From Parasedimentitalea marina (GTDB taxonomy: Bacteria > Pseudomonadota > Alphaproteobacteria > Rhodobacterales > Rhodobacteraceae), in the NCBI RefSeq assembly GCF_004006175.1, contig NZ_CP033219.1, positions 1,922,001 through 1,986,000 of the forward strand: DNA of 64,000 nt. The letters are read 5' to 3'. Position numbers and translations under genes: made by a program. Positions within the stretch are counted from its first letter, which is position 1, and every line of letters starts with the position of its first letter. Positions 25,698-33,616 of the stretch are shown piece by piece. The notes under the pieces were generated by a model. That model did not search any database and was not told the origin of the DNA. It saw nothing but the letters and a program-made list of their open reading frames with translations.

Positions 25698-26039
25698 ATG
25701 AAAATCATCATCACACTTGTTCTGACAACGTTGCTCGCCTCGGGTGCATCAGCCCATTCAAAAGTTAACACAACCACGCCGCCCAACAACTCAATATTAG
25801 CCAACGTTCCAACACAGATCGAATTTGGCTTTGCAAATAAAATCCGACTGACAAAAGTCGAGGTGTCCCATGACACCAATCCAGCTGTTGCCATTGAAAT
25901 TGGCGGACAGACCGGTTTTGAACAAATGTATACTATGCCGTTACAAGATTTTGGGGACGGCAGCTACTTTGTGAGGTGGCGGGGACTGGGCATGGACGGT
26001 CACGCCGTGCAGGGTGAATTCTCTTTCGAGGTTAATTGA
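25698..26039 (+). CDS. copC: Copper-binding periplasmic protein CopC
   Basis: Periplasmic copper protein of 113 residues. The signal peptide ends at ASGASA, placing a histidine at mature position 1 (HSKVNTT), as needed for a histidine-brace Cu(II) site. The second half of the site is present as GMDGHAVQGEFSFEV (Asp and His). No Met-rich Cu(I) loop is seen, so it is probably a Cu(II)-only type. It lies 9 bases after the cytochrome gene, and the copD start follows almost at once. Confidence 0.9.
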   Translation: MKIIITLVLTTLLASGASAHSKVNTTTPPNNSILANVPTQIEFGFANKIRLTKVEVSHDTNPAVAIEIGGQTGFEQMYTMPLQDFGDGSYFVRWRGLGMDGHAVQGEFSFEVN

Positions 26040-26041
26040 AT

Positions 26042-26908
26042 ATGCTGGATATCTGGGAAGTTGCTGCAATCGCGGCTAAGGTATTACTGTATACAAGCCT
26101 GTCCGGGGCGACAGGGCTTGTCTTAGTGCGGATTGTCTTTGTCGCCCATGTCACGTCTCTTGAACGGCGATTGCGGTCGTTTGCGCTGGTTTTGACCGGC
26201 GTTGCTTTTGCAGCGACCACCTTTAGCTTTCTTCTGCGTGGGGCCGCACTAACGGGTGATGTGTCCGGAATGGCGGATCCTGAAATGCTTGGCCTCCTTT
26301 GGACCACCTCGGTGGGGGATGTGTTGTTCTATCGACTGATCGGCATCGCCTTGCTGTTTGTTGGCCTTTTTATTCCCAAAGTCGGGGTTTGGGTGACTTT
26401 AACAGGTAGTCTGATTGCGCTTTGGTCGTTTGCCCAGATCGGTCATATTCCAGAGTTGGACCAAACCGGCATTCGCCTGTTGTTGCTGCTGCATTTAATT
26501 GGGATCTCGTTTTGGATCGGGATTCTTGCACCTCTGCGGTGGCTGGCCCGCGATCCAGAGAAATTGGCAGCGGCGGCGGATTTGGGGCACCGTTTTGGTG
26601 TCATGGCCTCGGGTGTTGTTTTGGTCCTGGTCCTGGCAGGAGGTCTGATGGCCTGGCTGATATTAGGAAGCATTTCGCTCATTTTTTCCACAACTTACGG
26701 AGTAACCCTCGTGGGTAAAGTGGCTTTGGTCGCTTTGCTGCTGGGCTTGGCCGCCGCCAACAAGTTCCGTTTCATCCCGGCAATGCAAGGCGGGGACCAT
26801 GCCGCGGCAAAGCACCTGGTTCGCTCAGTTGAAATTGAAACTTTTGTCATCACTGCTGTATTGGGCGTAACCGCCACTCTGACCAGCGTTTTGGCATTAC
26901 CGATGTGA
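26042..26908 (+). CDS. copD: Copper resistance membrane protein CopD
   Basis: Inner-membrane protein of about 288 residues with eight predicted hydrophobic segments, partner of CopC and thought to move copper across the inner membrane. Readable landmarks are LYTSLSGATGLVLVRIVF, LWTTSVGDVLFYRL, LLLLHLIGISFWIGILAPL and TTYGVTLVGKVALVALLLG. These carry the conserved His and Gly positions of the family. ATG 26042 is taken as the start with GAGG 10 bases upstream. TTG 26036, overlapping the copC stop, is an alternative. Confidence 0.9.
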   Translation: MLDIWEVAAIAAKVLLYTSLSGATGLVLVRIVFVAHVTSLERRLRSFALVLTGVAFAATTFSFLLRGAALTGDVSGMADPEMLGLLWTTSVGDVLFYRLIGIALLFVGLFIPKVGVWVTLTGSLIALWSFAQIGHIPELDQTGIRLLLLLHLIGISFWIGILAPLRWLARDPEKLAAAADLGHRFGVMASGVVLVLVLAGGLMAWLILGSISLIFSTTYGVTLVGKVALVALLLGLAAANKFRFIPAMQGGDHAAAKHLVRSVEIETFVITAVLGVTATLTSVLALPM

Positions 26909-26916
26909 GTAGCAAT

Positions 26917-28227
26917 ATGAATAGACGAGACTTCCTGGCTGCTGGAACTGCGGCACTGCTGGCACCACGACTGGGTTGGGCCAGCAGCTCACAGGATTTA
27001 GTTGCGCAACCCGTCACGGCACAAATTCTACCAGACGACAGTCCGGCATCTGCCATGTGGGGATACAACGGTAACACGCCTGGCCCCGAGCTTCGCCTGG
27101 CCCAGGGAGGCTTTGTTGATGTCAGGTTTCTGAACCAGATCAATCAGGGTTCGGCGGTGCATTGGCATGGTTTGCGGTCGGAAAATGCAATGGACGGTGT
27201 TCCGGGGTTGACCCAAGACATTGTTCCCAGCGGCGGTGAGTTTGCTTATCGCCTGCGCGCACCGGATGCAGGCACATTCTGGTATCACGCCCACAACCGA
27301 TCCTGGGAGCAGGTCGCCAAGGGGATGTATGGGCCGCTGATTGTGGAAGAACGCAATCCACCGGATGTGGATCATGACATGACCGTTTTGATTGACGACT
27401 GGAGGATGTCAGAGACCGGCGTCTTGGCGGCGGATTTTGACAGTCGGCATGATCAGTCCCATGCGGGTCGATTGGGAAACTTTGCCCGGGCGATCATAAC
27501 ACCTGAGGCTCAGCTTCGGACCGGCGACCGCGTGCGTTTTAGACTGCTCAATGTCGCAACAGACCGCATTTTTCCTGTCGAACTGACGGGTATTCAGGGA
27601 AAGGTGGTAGCCCTTGACGGTATGCCGCTCACCACGCCTCAGGATATCGCTGATCTGGTTTTGACCCCGGCTCAGCGTGTTGATATCATTGCCGATGTCA
27701 CGGCACCCGAAATTGTGCAGTTCCTGTTCCCAACGCCTGACAGTCCCTATGTTATGGGAGAGATTACCGTTTCAGGGGCCAACGACCAGCGCATCGCATC
27801 ACCGATTACGCCGCTGCCGGCAAATGAAATCGCGCAGCCAGATCTGGATGCCGCGCTGTTGTTGACATTGACAATGGAAGGTGGCGCAATGAGCCCTCGC
27901 AGCACGTCTTTCAGCGATATCTGGGGCTTCAACGGTCAGTCAGGACTAACCGACAAGCCGTTCCATGATTTTGAACGGGGACAGACGGCACGTATATCTT
28001 TGGTGAACGACACCAGGTTTCCACATGGGATACACCTGCATGGCCATCACTTTTTTGAACTGAATGCAGACGGAGAGCCGGGCGCGTTCAGAGATACCAC
28101 TTTGATCGAGGCCGGAGAGACGCGTGATATTTTGTGCGTTTTTGACAATCCTGGAAAGTGGCTGCTGCATTGTCACATGCTGGGCCATCAAGCTGCAGGG
28201 ATGAAAACATGGGTGAATGTATCCTAA
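26917..28227 (+). CDS. Tat-exported multicopper oxidase
   Basis: Periplasmic multicopper oxidase of about 436 residues. The start is MNRRDFLAAGTAALLAPRLG, a twin-arginine type signal (RRDFL). All four copper-ligand clusters are present: VHWHGLR, FWYHAHNRSWEQ, HGIHLHGHHFF, and the C-terminal type-1 site LLHCHMLGHQAAGM with axial methionine. There is no Met-rich insertion like that of CueO. ATG 26917 is preferred over GTG 26905, as the twin-arginine motif follows immediately. It is last in the copper cassette; Cu(I) oxidation is the likely role, but other phenol or metal substrates are possible. Confidence 0.9.
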   Translation: MNRRDFLAAGTAALLAPRLGWASSSQDLVAQPVTAQILPDDSPASAMWGYNGNTPGPELRLAQGGFVDVRFLNQINQGSAVHWHGLRSENAMDGVPGLTQDIVPSGGEFAYRLRAPDAGTFWYHAHNRSWEQVAKGMYGPLIVEERNPPDVDHDMTVLIDDWRMSETGVLAADFDSRHDQSHAGRLGNFARAIITPEAQLRTGDRVRFRLLNVATDRIFPVELTGIQGKVVALDGMPLTTPQDIADLVLTPAQRVDIIADVTAPEIVQFLFPTPDSPYVMGEITVSGANDQRIASPITPLPANEIAQPDLDAALLLTLTMEGGAMSPRSTSFSDIWGFNGQSGLTDKPFHDFERGQTARISLVNDTRFPHGIHLHGHHFFELNADGEPGAFRDTTLIEAGETRDILCVFDNPGKWLLHCHMLGHQAAGMKTWVNVS

Positions 28228-28390: not shown

Positions 28391-28804
28391 TCAGGCACTT
28401 GCCGCTGGACTCTCGGGTGTCACGCGCCAGAATGTAACGGCCGCATCGAACTCAGCTGTGTGAAATGCGAGTTGTTCAGGCCCCGAGTGGTCACCACTGA
28501 ACCGCCCAACGCGCTGTGCGCAATCGAAAAATCCGGGTGCTGGTAATCCGTTCCGTGTTTTGCTGACCACCAAAGCTGCGATCAATGGCTGGTTGGCGGC
28601 GGCATCTTCTTTTATCAGATATTCCAATGCGAGAGTGAGCCGATGGATCGTATTTGGTGGCGCAAGGCCCAAAGCCTTGGCAAGCGCTTGATAGGTGATG
28701 GGCACCGCTTGCCCGGCAACTTGGCAAAGGTAGGCCCGCAGGCGCGGTGCCAACTGGGCGGCCGGATCTGCGGCACTGTTTTCGGATAAATCAATAGGTG
28801 GCAT
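28391..28804 (-). CDS. Conserved hypothetical protein with winged-helix-like core
   Basis: Unknown 137-residue protein. The central part, VPITYQALAKALGLAPPNTI followed by RLTLALEYLIKED, looks like a small helix-turn-helix domain resembling the alkyltransferase-like fold. It continues LIAALVVSKTRNGLPAPGFF and ends with an Ala-rich tail. The similarity is by eye only. It is convergent with the copper oxidase and followed, on the same strand, by the LysR gene upstream of it. Confidence 0.6.
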   Translation of the reverse strand: MPPIDLSENSAADPAAQLAPRLRAYLCQVAGQAVPITYQALAKALGLAPPNTIHRLTLALEYLIKEDAAANQPLIAALVVSKTRNGLPAPGFFDCAQRVGRFSGDHSGPEQLAFHTAEFDAAVTFWRVTPESPAASA

Positions 28805-28912: not shown

Positions 28913-29824
28913 TTACGAGCGCGGGCTACCTTTATCCAGACCCAAGTATTCCAAGAGCAAACGAACCGTTGATGTTTCCGCGCGTGCATTTGGGACGACG
29001 CAAACATAGTCTTTTTTCATTGGCAGGTTCACCTTAGTCGGAGAAATCAATGAGCCGGAGATGAGATCTGCCTTTACCAACATGGAAGGGGTCAGGGCGA
29101 CACCTGCGTTTTGCTTGGCTGCCGAAATCGCAAGTGACATGTCACTAAGGATCAACCCCGGGTTGGTGAGGGCGACGCTAGCGGTGCCTGCCTCTCGCCG
29201 CCAATCCGCCCAGACCGGCTCGCTGGCGTAGGCTGGTCCCCATTTATGGTGGATAAGCTTGGTGTCGGGAATATTCGTCATCATCCCGTCGGGGTCTGAG
29301 TATTGTTCCCAAAATGATGGTGAACAGACCGGAAGCGCAAAATCAGAGAATAGTGGGATTTGGCGGTACCCCGGGTAAAACGCAGACCCAAACGTCAGGC
29401 GAACATCAATCGCCTCCCGCTCAAAATCAATGGGGTCTTCCTGAACACGAATATCCAGCGCCACCCCGGTCTGCTCTCTGAAACTCAATGCTTTTGGAAG
29501 AAACCAGCGATCTGACAATGCTGGTAGCACGCTGACGACAACTTGCCGGGTGCGTTTGTTGCTGCGAACGATTTGGGCCGCATCTGACAGCTCACCAAAT
29601 GCCCGAGCCAGTTTGGGGTACATCTCTTCGCCGGCGTCGGTCAGGGATATCCGGTTGCCTTTGCGCAGAAATAGCATTTTGCCCAAATGGTCTTCGAGAC
29701 TTTTGACCTGCAAGCTAACAGCCGCAGAGCTGACACCCAGTTCATTGCCAGCCAGTACAAAGCTGCCGCATCTGGCCGCAACCTCAAAGGCCCGCAACCC
29801 GTTCAAGGAAGGTAGATTATGCAT
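28913..29824 (-). CDS. LysR-family regulator, GcvA-like
   Basis: Transcription factor of 303 residues. The N-terminal helix-turn-helix is readable (LRAFEVAARCGSFVLAGNELG, SSAAVSLQVKSLEDHLG), as is the wing region LFLRKGNRISLTDAGEE. The C-terminal effector domain contains VVVSVLPALSDRWFLPKAL, as in GcvA-type members. It starts MHNLPSLNGLRAF at ATG 29824, 91 bases from the divergent oxygenase gene, the classical arrangement for a LysR protein controlling its neighbour. The effector is unknown. Confidence 0.9.
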   Translation of the reverse strand: MHNLPSLNGLRAFEVAARCGSFVLAGNELGVSSAAVSLQVKSLEDHLGKMLFLRKGNRISLTDAGEEMYPKLARAFGELSDAAQIVRSNKRTRQVVVSVLPALSDRWFLPKALSFREQTGVALDIRVQEDPIDFEREAIDVRLTFGSAFYPGYRQIPLFSDFALPVCSPSFWEQYSDPDGMMTNIPDTKLIHHKWGPAYASEPVWADWRREAGTASVALTNPGLILSDMSLAISAAKQNAGVALTPSMLVKADLISGSLISPTKVNLPMKKDYVCVVPNARAETSTVRLLLEYLGLDKGSPRS

Positions 29825-29841
29825 CGTCACCCTATTTTTTC

Positions 29842-29860
29842 TTATGATACCTAATAATAA
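29842..29860. promoter_or_regulatory. Candidate LysR operator (T-N11-A type)
   Basis: TTAT (29842-29845), eleven bases, then ATAA (29857-29860) form the inverted TTAT-N11-ATAA box typical of LysR sites. It lies 18 bases upstream of the lysR start in the divergent spacer to the oxygenase gene. This is a pattern match only. Confidence 0.45.
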
Positions 29861-29915
29861 ATCTGGTTGTGATTGTCCATAACATGCGCTCAATGAGGAC
29901 AACGGAGGACGTGAT

Positions 29916-30707
29916 ATGAACCAGTTTATCGATCTTGAAAAATATCCCCTGGACCGCCCGGACAGCGCTGAATACGCCGCTTTGGTTGAAAAGTGTCAGG
30001 CGGACCTTGCCAGTGAGGGCATGTTCAATCTGCCAGGGTTCTTTAAACCCGGCGTGGCCCAAGCGGCAGCGGATGCAGTCAAACCGGCCATGGACACCGA
30101 GTCTTTTCGCCATGCCCGGCGCCACAATGTTTACTTCAAGGACAGCGTGGATGGCCTAACAGATGCGCACCCGGCGATGCAAAAAGTCGAAACTGTGAAC
30201 CACACACTTTGTGCGGATCAGTTGGTCGGCAACCCGGTGATCGATGTGTATGAATGGGCACCGTTTGCGGCCTTTCTGGCTGCAACCAAGGGCAAAGAAA
30301 AACTGTATCAGATGGCCGATAAGATGGCGCGCGTGAACGTGCAGGCGACCCGCGACGGTGAGGGGTTGAACTGGCACTTTGACCGGGCAGAGTTTACCAC
30401 GACAATTCTGCTTCAAGCTGCGGAAACTGGTGGGCAGCTTGAGTATCGTAAAGATCTGCGATCGGCGGATAATCCGAACTATGACGGGGTTGCGGCGGTG
30501 CTGGCCGGAGAAGATCCGGAAACCAAGCAGATGATGCCCGAAGCGGGTGCGCTGAATGTTTTCCGAGGCGTTAACACGGCCCACCGTGTGATTCCCGTCG
30601 AGGGCCCAACCGAGCGGGTGACTGCAATTTTTTCCTACTATGAACAGCCTGATGTGGCCTTTTCGACCGAGGAACAGCAGGGTTTCTACGGCCGCTCTGT
30701 GACCTAA
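29916..30707 (+). CDS. Fe(II)/2-oxoglutarate-dependent oxygenase, HalD/BesD-like fold group
   Basis: Predicted non-haem iron oxygenase of 263 residues. The metal triad is H154-x-D156 (LNWHFDRAEF) and H223 (NTAHRVIP). R234 (PTERV) is placed to bind the 2-oxoglutarate carboxylate, and GALNVFRG precedes the distal His. It resembles proteins labelled HalD/BesD-type amino-acid halogenases, but the Asp of HxD is present, which argues for hydroxylation or another oxygenation rather than halogenation. GGAGG-like site CGGAGG stands before ATG 29916. It is first in a three-gene cluster with the DddP-like and lyase-like genes. The substrate is unknown; a free amino acid is plausible. Confidence 0.75.
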   Translation: MNQFIDLEKYPLDRPDSAEYAALVEKCQADLASEGMFNLPGFFKPGVAQAAADAVKPAMDTESFRHARRHNVYFKDSVDGLTDAHPAMQKVETVNHTLCADQLVGNPVIDVYEWAPFAAFLAATKGKEKLYQMADKMARVNVQATRDGEGLNWHFDRAEFTTTILLQAAETGGQLEYRKDLRSADNPNYDGVAAVLAGEDPETKQMMPEAGALNVFRGVNTAHRVIPVEGPTERVTAIFSYYEQPDVAFSTEEQQGFYGRSVT

Positions 30708-30716
30708 AACAAATAG

Positions 30717-30743
30717 CTCCTTCCTGGCCTGGCCCGGAAGGAG
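30717..30743 (+). terminator. Hairpin between the oxygenase and M24 genes
   Basis: CTCCTTCC (30717-30724) pairs with GGAAGGAG (30736-30743) around an 11-base loop, 9 bases after the oxygenase stop. There is no strong T-tract, so it may be a weak terminator or an RNA-stability hairpin within the cluster. Confidence 0.4.
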
Positions 30744-30811
30744 TTCCCATTTCAAACCGGGACATGGCTGCGACTTTGGCTTGCGGCAAAGTCTTGTCAT
30801 AGGACGTCAAA

Positions 30812-32071
30812 ATGACTCAAACTCAGAACGCCTTTAAAGATGATCGCAAACTGACCTATCTCAACAGCAATGGGGCTGATAAGCCGCTGATCAGCCCGGT
30901 CAGTGCGACTGTTGTGGACAGTGCGCGGAGCTATCGTTTGGGGCGTTTCAAAGAGATTCTAGTGCAGAATGATGTTGCGGGGATCATCCTGTATGATCCT
31001 ATCAACATCCGTTATGCATTCGACAGCTCGAACATGCAGGTCTGGACCAGCCATAACCCGGTTCGCTATGCCATGATCTTGGCAGACGGTCCGGCGATCC
31101 TGTGGGAGTTCAAGGGGTGCGAGCATTTGAACGACGGCTTGCCGGGCATCGATGAACTTCGCACTGCCGTGTCCTGGATGTTCATGAGCAAAGGCGACAA
31201 GGCGGCTGCTGGTGTTGAAGTCTGGGCCGACGAAATTGCGGATGTGTTACGTCAGTATGGCGGCGGCAACAAACGTTTTGCTGCAGATAAACTGGATGGC
31301 CCAGGACTTCACGCCCTCGAGAGCCGTGGGTTTACTTATGTTGAGGGCGCTGAACTTACCGAGCGGGCCCGGTCCATCAAATCGGCCGCAGAAATCGAAT
31401 TGATGCGCTGGACAATCCGGGTCTGCGAAGCCGGCATGGCGCGGATCTATGAGCATTCGGTTCCGGGCGTTACCGAGCGCGAACTTTGGGCGCATCTTCA
31501 CTTTGAAAACGCGCGCTCTGGCGGGGATTGGTTGGAAACCAAACTGCTGGCCTGTGGTCCAAACACCAACCCCTGGTACACCGAATGCTCGGATCGCGTC
31601 TGTCAGAAAGGCGAAATGATCTCGTTCGACACTGATATGATAGGCCCTTACGGCTATTGTGCCGACCTGTCGCGCAGCTGGACCTGTGGCTATACGCCAA
31701 TGAACGATACACAAAAACGCATCTACTCGACTGCGCTAGAGCAAATCGATCACAACCTGGCGATCCTAAGTCCGGGGATGAGTTTTGCCGAATATAACGA
31801 GAAAAGCTGGCGCATCCCGTCCAAGCATGTCGACTATCGCTATTCCCTGGCGGCGCATGGGGTTGGGATGGCGGATGAGTGGCCGGTTATTCCCTTGCAT
31901 GTAGATTTTGGCGACACGGCAACCGGCGGCGAGATCGAGCCGGGCATGGTGCTGTGTATCGAAAGTCTGGTTGCTGAACAGGGGTCCGAAAGTGTCAAGC
32001 TTGAGACACAGGTTCTGATCACGGACACAGGATATGAACGGTTGGACAGTTTTCCTTGGGAAGTTGTTTAA
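30812..32071 (+). CDS. M24-fold metalloprotein related to DMSP lyase DddP
   Basis: Creatinase/aminopeptidase-P-fold protein of 419 residues. All likely metal ligands are in place: D273 and D275 (SFDTDMIG), D285 (CADLSRSW), H349 (AAHGVGMADEWP), E384 (CIESLV) and E398 (KLETQ). Spacing is close to that of DddP, the M24-fold enzyme that cleaves dimethylsulfoniopropionate to DMS and acrylate. The N-terminal part also matches in style (YDPINIRYAFDSSNMQVW). Tyr344, five residues before the His, aligns with a conserved DddP tyrosine. True DddP function is not proven, and many roseobacters carry M24 paralogues of unknown substrate. It sits between the oxygenase and the lyase-like gene. Confidence 0.75.
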   Translation: MTQTQNAFKDDRKLTYLNSNGADKPLISPVSATVVDSARSYRLGRFKEILVQNDVAGIILYDPINIRYAFDSSNMQVWTSHNPVRYAMILADGPAILWEFKGCEHLNDGLPGIDELRTAVSWMFMSKGDKAAAGVEVWADEIADVLRQYGGGNKRFAADKLDGPGLHALESRGFTYVEGAELTERARSIKSAAEIELMRWTIRVCEAGMARIYEHSVPGVTERELWAHLHFENARSGGDWLETKLLACGPNTNPWYTECSDRVCQKGEMISFDTDMIGPYGYCADLSRSWTCGYTPMNDTQKRIYSTALEQIDHNLAILSPGMSFAEYNEKSWRIPSKHVDYRYSLAAHGVGMADEWPVIPLHVDFGDTATGGEIEPGMVLCIESLVAEQGSESVKLETQVLITDTGYERLDSFPWEVV

Positions 32072-32116
32072 TTCTGAAAACCTCTGTGCGTGACACACCT
32101 GACTTGAAGGCCAACT

Positions 32117-33616
32117 ATGTTTGATAATTCCGACGTTTCTTCCGGCGATCCAATTGTTTTGGATGGCGTGTCTCTGACCTGTGCGCAGCTAGTGACGGCT
32201 GCACATCAGAAGTCAAAAGTGGCAATCACCGAAGAGGGCAGGGATCGGATTATCCATGGTCGTAAGGTGGTGGAAAGTGTCGCGGCCAGCGGCGCCCCCG
32301 GATATGGCATCACCACCGGCGTTGGATCGCAAAAGGATTTTGCGGTCGCTGCTGAAAATGTGCAGGACTATAATCGCCGTCTGGCCCGCGCGCATTCAAC
32401 CCATATTGGCGGCGCTGTGCTGCCCAAAAGCCGTGTCCGCGCCGCTTTGATCATTCTGGTCAATGAATTTTCGCTTGGGCTGTCAGGCGTTTCAGAACCT
32501 CTCGTCCAATTGATCACAGATCAGATCAACGAGGCCGCAATGCCCGAGGTGTCATCTTACGGGACGGTGGGCGCGGCAGATCTGATACCAATGTCACAGA
32601 TAGCGAACTGGTTGCAAAACATGCCGCAAGCGCAAAAGTTTGGCATCCCCGGACCCAAAGAAACCCTGTCCCTGATCAACACCAATGCGATCACTCTGGC
32701 CACCGGAGCCGAAGTGTTGATGGAGGCACGTGATGTGCTGGATCTGGCAAACCTGTCGCTGGCCTTCTCGCTGGAAGCCTTCCGCGGCAATCTGGATTCG
32801 GTCTCGGAAAAGGTGAACCTCGCGCATCGTCGTGGCGGGCAGGCGAAGGTCAGTGCAGATATACGTGGGCTGCTGCACAACAGTAAGCTTTGGGACGATG
32901 GACAAGCTCGGCGCATTCAGGACCCGCTGAGTTTTCGCTGTGCCTCGCAGATCCAAGGGGCGCTGAGCGAACTGCTGGACCGTGCGGTCGAGGTCTGGGA
33001 TCAAGAGCTGAACTCTGTCACCGATAACCCGATTGTGGATGCTGCAGAACAATGTGTCCGATCGCATGGTAATATGGATTCTACCCGCATGACCCTGGCC
33101 ATAGACGGGCTGCGGCAGGCCTTTGCCAAAACGCTGGATATCTCTGGCGAGCGGTTGCACAAGCAACAATGGACCGAGTTCTCCGGGTTGCCCACGGGGT
33201 TTGCGGACGCAAATAGCCCTCTGGGCGGCGTACAGTTCCTGAACCTTGGCCATTTGGCGGCGTCGCTTATCACTTCAGCCAAGATCTGGGCTGCGCCCTC
33301 GTTGCTTTTGTCTGTCGGCCAACTGGCTGACGGAGTAGAGGACACAGCTGGGTTGGCGTTTCATTCGGTCGCTGACTTTGAGCGTATACTTGAGGCAGCA
33401 CGTCTGGTTCTGTCGATTGAAATTCTGGTCTCGGTTTGGGCGATCAACAAACGTGGACTGCCAACATCCGATTTGGGCGAAAGTCTTCGGGAATACACCG
33501 ATCAAATCACCTCGTTGCTGCCTATCGGCAAAGAGGGGCTGGACGTGTTTTCAATCGAGCCGATCGTCGACGTCATTCGCTCTATCAGTCAAAGCCGGGT
33601 TGCCAACTTAGTCTGA
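32117..33616 (+). CDS. Histidine/aromatic ammonia-lyase family protein lacking the MIO triad
   Basis: Protein of 499 residues with the ammonia-lyase fold. PGYGITTGVGSQKDF holds the lid-loop tyrosine (Y63), and SVTDNPIVD and other core segments are present. The Ala-Ser-Gly triad that cyclises to the MIO electrophile should read GASGDLAP, but here it is VGAADLIP (152-157): one residue shorter, with no serine. The frame is open on both sides, so a single-base error cannot explain it. Two other active-site segments also differ: QDPLSFRC instead of QDxYSxRC, and VEDTAG instead of an EDH-type motif. It is probably not a classical ammonia-lyase. It is last in the cluster after the DddP-like gene. 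Confidence 0.8.
   Translation: MFDNSDVSSGDPIVLDGVSLTCAQLVTAAHQKSKVAITEEGRDRIIHGRKVVESVAASGAPGYGITTGVGSQKDFAVAAENVQDYNRRLARAHSTHIGGAVLPKSRVRAALIILVNEFSLGLSGVSEPLVQLITDQINEAAMPEVSSYGTVGAADLIPMSQIANWLQNMPQAQKFGIPGPKETLSLINTNAITLATGAEVLMEARDVLDLANLSLAFSLEAFRGNLDSVSEKVNLAHRRGGQAKVSADIRGLLHNSKLWDDGQARRIQDPLSFRCASQIQGALSELLDRAVEVWDQELNSVTDNPIVDAAEQCVRSHGNMDSTRMTLAIDGLRQAFAKTLDISGERLHKQQWTEFSGLPTGFADANSPLGGVQFLNLGHLAASLITSAKIWAAPSLLLSVGQLADGVEDTAGLAFHSVADFERILEAARLVLSIEILVSVWAINKRGLPTSDLGESLREYTDQITSLLPIGKEGLDVFSIEPIVDVIRSISQSRVANLV

Follow-up and report, generated by a model that had tools for sequence, protein, structure and literature searches.

Ergothionase is an enzyme of the aromatic-lyase fold which is described as lacking the 4-methylideneimidazole-5-one (MIO) group and as releasing trimethylamine (PMC13405746). 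Two further enzyme groups that bear on the present locus, the group V Rieske enzymes and the MttB family, are described as acting on quaternary ammonium compounds where members have been tested (PMC10952381; PMC12478193). A four-gene cluster of Parasedimentitalea marina, located in a stretch of 64,000 nucleotides (contig NZ_CP033219.1, positions 1,922,001 to 1,986,000, hereafter the window), combines a putative lyase of the ergothionase type with an Fe(II)/2-oxoglutarate oxygenase (Oxy) and an M24-family protein (M24) that resembles the dimethylsulfoniopropionate (DMSP) lyase DddP; the three co-directed genes diverge from a gene for a LysR-family regulator. The first-pass annotation of the window had described this arrangement, and all four genes are indeed present and supported by Pfam. 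The cluster very likely serves the degradation of betaines. The fuller reading, in which LysR controls the breakdown of amino-acid betaines with the help of a MIO-less ergothionase-type lyase and the substrate is likely histidine betaine, is held with moderate confidence. The earlier suggestion that a betaine-like compound or small amino acid is oxygenated and cleaved while ammonia is not lost in the ordinary manner is retained in part, on the strength of the ergothionase-like lyase and of betaine-type partners of Oxy and M24 elsewhere; that oxygenation precedes cleavage would be one possible order, whereas DMSP as the substrate is disfavoured by a true DddP encoded elsewhere in the genome.

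The lyase shares the fold of histidine ammonia-lyase (HutH) and the equivalents of its Tyr53, His83, Arg283 and Glu414, but it has lost the Ala-Ser-Gly triad so that MIO should not form: its former MIO site reads GTVGA-A-DLIP against GSVGASGDLAP in HutH and is one residue shorter. Ala-Ser-Gly is found at this site in none of the best 120 of 540 homologues, and in a second alignment in none of 24 family rows against four of four HutH rows, which bears out the earlier remark that this ammonia-lyase homologue has no MIO triad; an ordinary ammonia-lyase was rejected for this reason. Its scores against the histidine ammonia-lyase families (223.9-225.3 bits) likewise fall below the cut-offs of 539.15 and 524. 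Several family members, which lack the triad, nevertheless go by the name of histidine ammonia-lyase in one source, while other sources call them aromatic amino acid lyase. The best sequence match in the PDB is ergothionase (6s7j, 7.2e-41, identity approximately 26%), and the three best structural matches of the predicted fold (mean predicted local distance difference test score, pLDDT, 86) are ergothionase chains. With the Treponema denticola enzyme (6s7j/6s7q) the lyase shares the aromatic-lyase fold, the absence of MIO, a deletion of the same length at the MIO site, the QDPLSFRC motif, a Glu at the place of HutH Glu414 and a Leu at that of HutH Tyr280, where all four HutH rows have Tyr; a Lys of the window lyase also aligns with a Lys of ergothionase, where T. 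cruzi HutH has Glu. Apart from the low identity, the two differ in the sequence of the MIO site (GE-GDI in ergothionase, GA-ADL in the window family), in the linkage of some window-family members to hut genes and in their tree positions, which do not join. On these sequence and model comparisons the lyase is likely of the ergothionase-like type.

The positions of His83 and Glu414, in what we take to be the HutH numbering, presumably face the ring of the substrate and hold other residues in the lyases for phenylalanine and tyrosine; a His89 variant of tyrosine ammonia-lyase appears among PDB titles. Because the lyase keeps these imidazole-end residues of HutH, histidine betaine, as hercynine or a compound closely derived from it, would be the leading candidate for its substrate, a proposal that stands at about an even balance. 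Release of trimethylamine by the lyase would follow a simple scheme. A base would remove the beta-proton of the betaine and trimethylamine would leave; MIO would be dispensable because the quaternary trimethylammonium is already a good leaving group, which makes an electrophilic cofactor unnecessary. Histidine betaine would in this way give urocanate, to be taken on by the complete hut cluster of the same genome, in which hutC, F, I, H, G and U lie together on another contig (L054).

The neighbourhoods of lyase relatives were compared at 25 loci, which consist of 18 from named genome contigs, the window, and loci from four other genomes of the same family and two of the same class (short copies refetched with longer flanks, L026-L030 and L063, are left out of the counts; L065 enters them under L076, and L064 under L075). 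Hut genes lie inside the fetched stretch at nine of the 25 (L013, L014, L015, L017, L020, L022, L024, L051, L076) and at six the lyase stands directly behind hutU (L013, L014, L015, L017, L051, L076), which argues for a substrate that a single reaction separates from urocanate. The nine loci are not independent, as L013-L015 and L020/L022/L024 are apparently two groups of near relatives. Seven of the 25 loci link the lyase to Oxy and/or M24 (the window, L008, L009, L010, L011, L031, L032; in L008 the M24 end only) and one to MttB (L050). For the hut-linked lyases, gene context and residues point to the conversion of hercynine to urocanate and trimethylamine as the simplest reading. An alternative is that the cluster acts on ergothioneine or on an oxidised form of it, with the lyase as a true ergothionase yielding thiourocanate and trimethylamine and with Oxy and M24 handling the sulfur. 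Ergothionase is the closest solved homologue of the lyase, and a bacterial ergothioneine sulfonate pathway has reportedly been found (Yan, in 2022, cited in PMC13405746 and PMC9967237), which counts for this alternative; it is nevertheless improbable given that identity to ergothionase is so low and that the three hutU proteins tested beside hut-linked relatives (L051, L013, L022) clear the cut-off for urocanate hydratase but neither of the two for thiourocanate hydratase (no search for the latter enzyme was made in the own genome). Since these three are of the urocanate type, hercynine is favoured over ergothioneine in their operons. If the lyases are histidine-betaine trimethylamine lyases, they would supply a missing catabolic entry for that class and a further aerobic source of trimethylamine. 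With the hut-linked members, a single purified enzyme would allow hercynine to be tried directly as the substrate, and a standard of this compound exists (PMC13405746).

The lyase family is rare, being found in five of 248 genomes of the same family (E <= 1e-50) and three of 385 of the same class (E <= 1e-90), the own genome counted in both. The window lyase belongs to a clade of five (support 100/100), whereas the lyase of L011, likewise encoded in a LysR-Oxy-M24-lyase row, falls outside this clade and groups with P0040 (100/100). Two separate recruitments of the lyase by the Oxy-M24 pair are not assumed, as one change would suffice for the link at 64/84 support. A plasmid home for the lyase was also rejected, with no plasmid match at E <= 1e-60. 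Among the relatives, a 42% identical protein of Rhizobium tropici (L018:10001-13449) is followed by genes for a UbiD-family decarboxylase and UbiX, which suggests that the acrylate-type product of this lyase undergoes decarboxylation.

Oxy and M24 form the conserved core of the cluster, around which the lyase, Rieske demethylases, MttB methyltransferases and betaine transporters vary. In the survey of the 248 same-family genomes, Oxy is found in 32 (E <= 1e-50) and M24 in 18 (E <= 1e-110). Close relatives of M24 (E <= 1e-200) occur in 13 genomes, and in 12 of these Oxy is no more than 2 kb away on that contig; in the thirteenth (G245) Oxy and M24 are located near the ends of two contigs. The full triple of Oxy, M24 and lyase is limited to three genomes (G000, G086, G009), and is also present on two named contigs (L009, L011). 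Co-occurrence in other genomes, which the first-pass annotation had put forward as a check on its three-gene pathway, therefore holds for the pair and not for the triple. The partners are of a recurrent kind. M24 adjoins MttB in L044-L046 and stands with MttB and a protein of the flavin adenine dinucleotide (FAD)/GcvT type in L036 and L052. At L055, L060 and L069 Oxy is accompanied by a Rieske enzyme as well as a transporter or binding protein of the peptide type, and at L010 by the lyase and a transporter of this kind. The Rieske enzymes of L055 and L060 are weak matches to GbcA (164.5 and 163 bits, cut-off 670) and that of L069 is nearest to CntA. In a locus with both core genes (L036:8552-9490) a gene for a membrane protein resembling fatty acid desaturases, recognised by eye, lies between Oxy and M24. 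Several Oxy-M24 pairs have folE2, trkH and metZ as conserved neighbours, which look like the mark of a common chromosomal site and are not read as function. At L034 the pair lies beside a hut cluster; as one among 26 other Oxy loci this may be chance and is not used as support.

Relatives of M24 are also found on plasmids (102 records with a match), from which nine regions were fetched for M24, seven of them annotated, and two more for Oxy. All seven annotated regions combine M24 with a Rieske oxygenase, and four of them with betaine or BCCT transporters; the Rieske protein is Stc2-like in R. etli and nearest to CntA in Pseudomonas. The unannotated L079 and the sparsely annotated L078, the latter with its Rieske and M24 genes in pieces, were read mainly by tblastn and both show an Stc2-like Rieske gene. 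Since such Rieske and MttB partners act on quaternary ammonium compounds where members have been tested, betaines are taken to be the substrate class of Oxy and M24. The two proteins would work on the same class of betaine, as alternatives or partners to the demethylases.

The rhizobial loci, of the stachydrine or hydroxyproline betaine type, resemble the window in having LysR, M24 and a betaine-type context, and they give weight to a cyclic amino-acid betaine, be it that of proline, that of 4-hydroxyproline or a homologous one, as the substrate of the cluster. Oxy would then hydroxylate or demethylate it, M24 would act on the product, and the lyase would open or trim the remaining quaternary amine. 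The rhizobial M24 proteins, 64-66% identical, are encoded behind a Rieske oxygenase and a reductase; in R. etli the Rieske protein belongs with the stachydrine demethylase family (346 bits to 3vca) and its gene lies near putA, a 4-hydroxyproline-epimerase-type gene and a glycine betaine/proline transporter, in a region that also holds a dapA-like gene and genes for an oxidoreductase and for an aldehyde dehydrogenase. A similar set recurs at L057, where Oxy stands beside MttB, a dapA-like gene and homologues of the R. etli oxidoreductase (49%) and aldehyde dehydrogenase (63%), and an enolase-superfamily gene is found nearby in L078. The window departs from the rhizobial loci in that Oxy stands where these have the Rieske protein and a lyase is added, and neither the transporter references, a generic ATPase match aside, nor the proline-type reference genes tested have a match in it; Stc2-like and GbcA-like Rieske references likewise give no window match at 1e-5. 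A cyclic betaine would moreover leave the imidazole-end residues of the lyase and the hut operons of its relatives unexplained, and as the substrate it appears unlikely, though a serious contender.

Several observations weigh against histidine betaine and, in part, against the wider assignment. The proline-type context of some M24 and Oxy relatives would allow another substrate for these two proteins. Searches of an open-licence library yielded no reported activity for any member of the lyase family, no hercynine trimethylamine lyase, and no paper that brings up hercynine, urocanate and trimethylamine jointly. Besides the lyase itself no match to hut references is found in the 64-kb window, and the substrate of the window clade may have shifted. 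References for transporters, Rieske proteins and MttB have no match in the window except for a generic ATP-binding cassette ATPase. The own genome gives no match to trimethylamine N-oxide demethylase at E <= 1e-100, and this route for the trimethylamine was rejected there. Eight of the 25 lyase loci lack hut genes, Oxy/M24 and MttB alike (L012, L016, L018, L019, L021, L023, L025, L075), of which L025 is a partial match of 29% identity and probably not a member; L021 and, among the hut-linked loci, L024 are partial too. In the tree the one row for ergothionase is placed with HutH (100/99), but its branch (3.58) is flagged as too long to trust, and a shared loss of MIO gets no support from this placement. 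At least four of the 32 Oxy genomes have MttB no farther than 5 kb from Oxy; the 32 hold 228 MttB matches (mean 7.1), from which about 0.6 would be expected by a rough estimate, and the proximity amounts to only modest support. The lyase of L050 is the one family row in which the His83 position is occupied by Glu. It lies in a row (L050:3722-10486) that consists of an FAD/GcvT protein, MttB, this divergent MIO-less lyase and a GbcA-like Rieske protein, and it is possibly a lyase for a non-imidazole betaine.

The lyase gene of L011 carries one in-frame stop, and that of G009 is split over two frames. It has to be asked, then, whether the lyase is redundant or non-catalytic and the three genes are loosely related and held together by shared regulation, for which the rarity of the triple and these damaged copies can be cited. 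This is nonetheless very improbable: the family conserves the Tyr of the catalytic loop, the Arg that binds the carboxylate and the residues at the imidazole end, and the order and spacing of the cluster are kept in L009, L011 and L031. At the G009 locus (L032) the lyase lies between Oxy and M24, and downstream are a GcvT-like gene and an MttB-like gene interrupted by two in-frame stops; to judge by its broken frames, the locus is a decaying or badly sequenced copy.

Like DddP, the M24 protein belongs to the M24 family and keeps the DddP-type metal ligands among its aligned residues, the single ligand positions of DddP being those that we presume. The NM-Q/S-x-W motif, NMQ-x-W in the comparison with DddP, is found in 23 of 23 M24 rows, and the pair equivalent to Tyr366 and Asp377 in all 22 readable rows (21 and the DddP row; the match of L033 is cut and comes in two pieces). 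These two residues are stated to be invariant in DddP, and in RdDddP they are placed above the metal centre (PMC4108388). The window protein differs in its score of 396.6 bits against the DddP family (NCBIfam NF043017, cut-off 600) and in its partners, which are betaine enzymes. In the M24 tree, proteins linked to Oxy, those of rhizobia linked to a Rieske enzyme and those linked to MttB in L044-L046 are near relatives, whereas DddP and the protein of L052 are distant and on long branches. The genome encodes a genuine DddP elsewhere (912.7 bits), for which reason a role of M24 as DMSP lyase was dropped as first choice; by its sequence M24 is not the DMSP lyase of this genome. The earlier description of a DddP-related M24 protein is accurate, but the protein does not reach the DddP cut-off. 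A scheme in which M24 is a second DMSP lyase acting on DMSP or a similar sulfonium compound, and in which Oxy and the lyase handle related osmolytes, could appeal to the conserved pair and motif and to a Pseudomonas plasmid locus where M24 lies near BCCT transporters and alcohol and semialdehyde dehydrogenases, a gene set which we take to resemble ddd clusters. The score, the genuine DddP and the quaternary-ammonium enzymes that are the usual partners make it highly unlikely. On the preferred betaine reading, the dinuclear metal centre of M24 and an Asp base would act on a carboxylate-bearing onium compound. As such proteins are easily mistaken for DMSP lyases they could inflate counts of dddP genes. 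A second betaine-type cluster of the own genome (C4, L052:6050-12371) holds LysR, MttB, an FAD/GcvT protein and another DddP-like M24 protein, which at 382.5 bits is likewise below the DddP cut-off.

The earlier assignment of Oxy to the Fe/2-oxoglutarate oxygenases is confirmed by the HalD family of Pfam (PF23169, found in 24 of 24 members; 2OG-FeII_Oxy_3 is just below its cut-off), by the predicted fold and by the iron ligands H154, D156 and H223, which are invariant in 24 of 24 rows. The fold (pLDDT 91) matches the halogenases HalB, BesD and HalD and the lysine hydroxylase homologue 7jsd; Oxy shares fold and PF23169 with the BesD/HalA/HalB/HalD halogenases and 7jsd, at 12-19% identity in the fold alignments listed. 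It differs from the BesD-type halogenases in having His-X-Asp in place of His-X-Gly, and because of this motif it is read as a hydroxylase, halogenation being rejected. From motif and model, Oxy probably hydroxylates a free, cationic amino-acid-like substrate, which here would be a betaine.

A more speculative proposal is that Oxy and M24 constitute a new route for the aerobic removal of trimethylamine from betaines independently of pyridoxal phosphate (PLP), since PLP enzymes cannot attack amino-acid betaines. Oxy would hydroxylate the beta-carbon; M24, in the manner of DddP, would bind the carboxylate, take the alpha-proton and expel water or split a C-C bond, and the resulting enammonium product would then lose trimethylamine. 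The MIO-less lyase would be a direct shortcut for imidazole-bearing betaines such as hercynine, whose urocanate enters the hut pathway. This route is quite unlikely as it stands.

Table 1. Features of the cluster, with positions counted from the first letter of the window.
Feature	Position	Strand	Remarks
LysR-family regulator, GcvA-like	28913..29824	-	divergent from operon; Pfam HTH_1 and LysR_substrate
Candidate LysR operator	29842..29860	.	TTAT-N11-ATAA; inner TTAT-N8-ATAA at 29842-29857
Ribosome-binding-site-like GGAGGA	29904..29909	+	before Oxy; from sequence
Oxy, Fe(II)/2-oxoglutarate oxygenase, BesD/HalD amino-acid family	29916..30707	+	PF23169, fold, iron ligands
Codons H154-F155-D156 (iron ligands)	30375..30383	+	HalB has His-Trp-Gly at the same place
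DddP-like M24 protein (M24)	30812..32071	+	Pfam Peptidase_M24; not DddP equivalog
MIO-less aromatic-amino-acid-lyase homologue, ergothionase type	32117..33616	+	Pfam Lyase_aromatic; proposed trimethylamine lyase
Codon H93 (HutH His83 position)	32393..32395	+	invariant in 19/19; second alignment His in 23/24
Former MIO site, residues G149 to P158	32561..32590	+	one residue shorter than HutH
Codon L271 (HutH Tyr280 position)	32927..32929	+	Leu in 24/24 family rows, also in ergothionase
Codon E408 (HutH Glu414 position)	33338..33340	+	Glu in 24/24 family rows

The regulator has GcvA as its best NCBIfam match (218.4 bits, below the cut-off of 288), and an alternative TTG start at 29902 is unlikely as the alignment with the L009 homologue begins at the residue encoded at 29824. 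A LysR match adjoins Oxy at 20 of the 26 other Oxy loci and is divergent at 19 of these; LysR is the proposed regulator of the cluster. The TTAT-N11-ATAA box noted earlier in the intergenic region is present and is the sole exact match in the window, but at least one match occurs in 21 of 100 whole-window shuffles, which makes the match alone weak. Among six other aligned intergenic regions the shorter TTAT-N8-ATAA is exact in four (L009, L031, L033, L042), the right half reads ACAA in L032 and the box is absent in L034; on this alignment TTAT-N8-ATAA is the conserved form of the candidate operator and the N11 reading is the window's own. Downstream, the genes are separated by 104 bases (Oxy-M24) and 45 bases (M24-lyase), and no plus-strand terminator-like site was found between the three. 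The only such site on this strand (33525-33542) lies within the end of the lyase gene; with four terminator-like sites in all, the count is below the mean of 5.9 obtained from shuffles. On the far side of the regulator, a reading frame of 137 amino acids on the minus strand (28391-28804) has no Pfam or NCBIfam match, and further upstream (25698-28227) lies a co-directed set that resembles copper-handling genes (CopC-like, CopD-like and a multicopper oxidase), as judged by eye from the translations.

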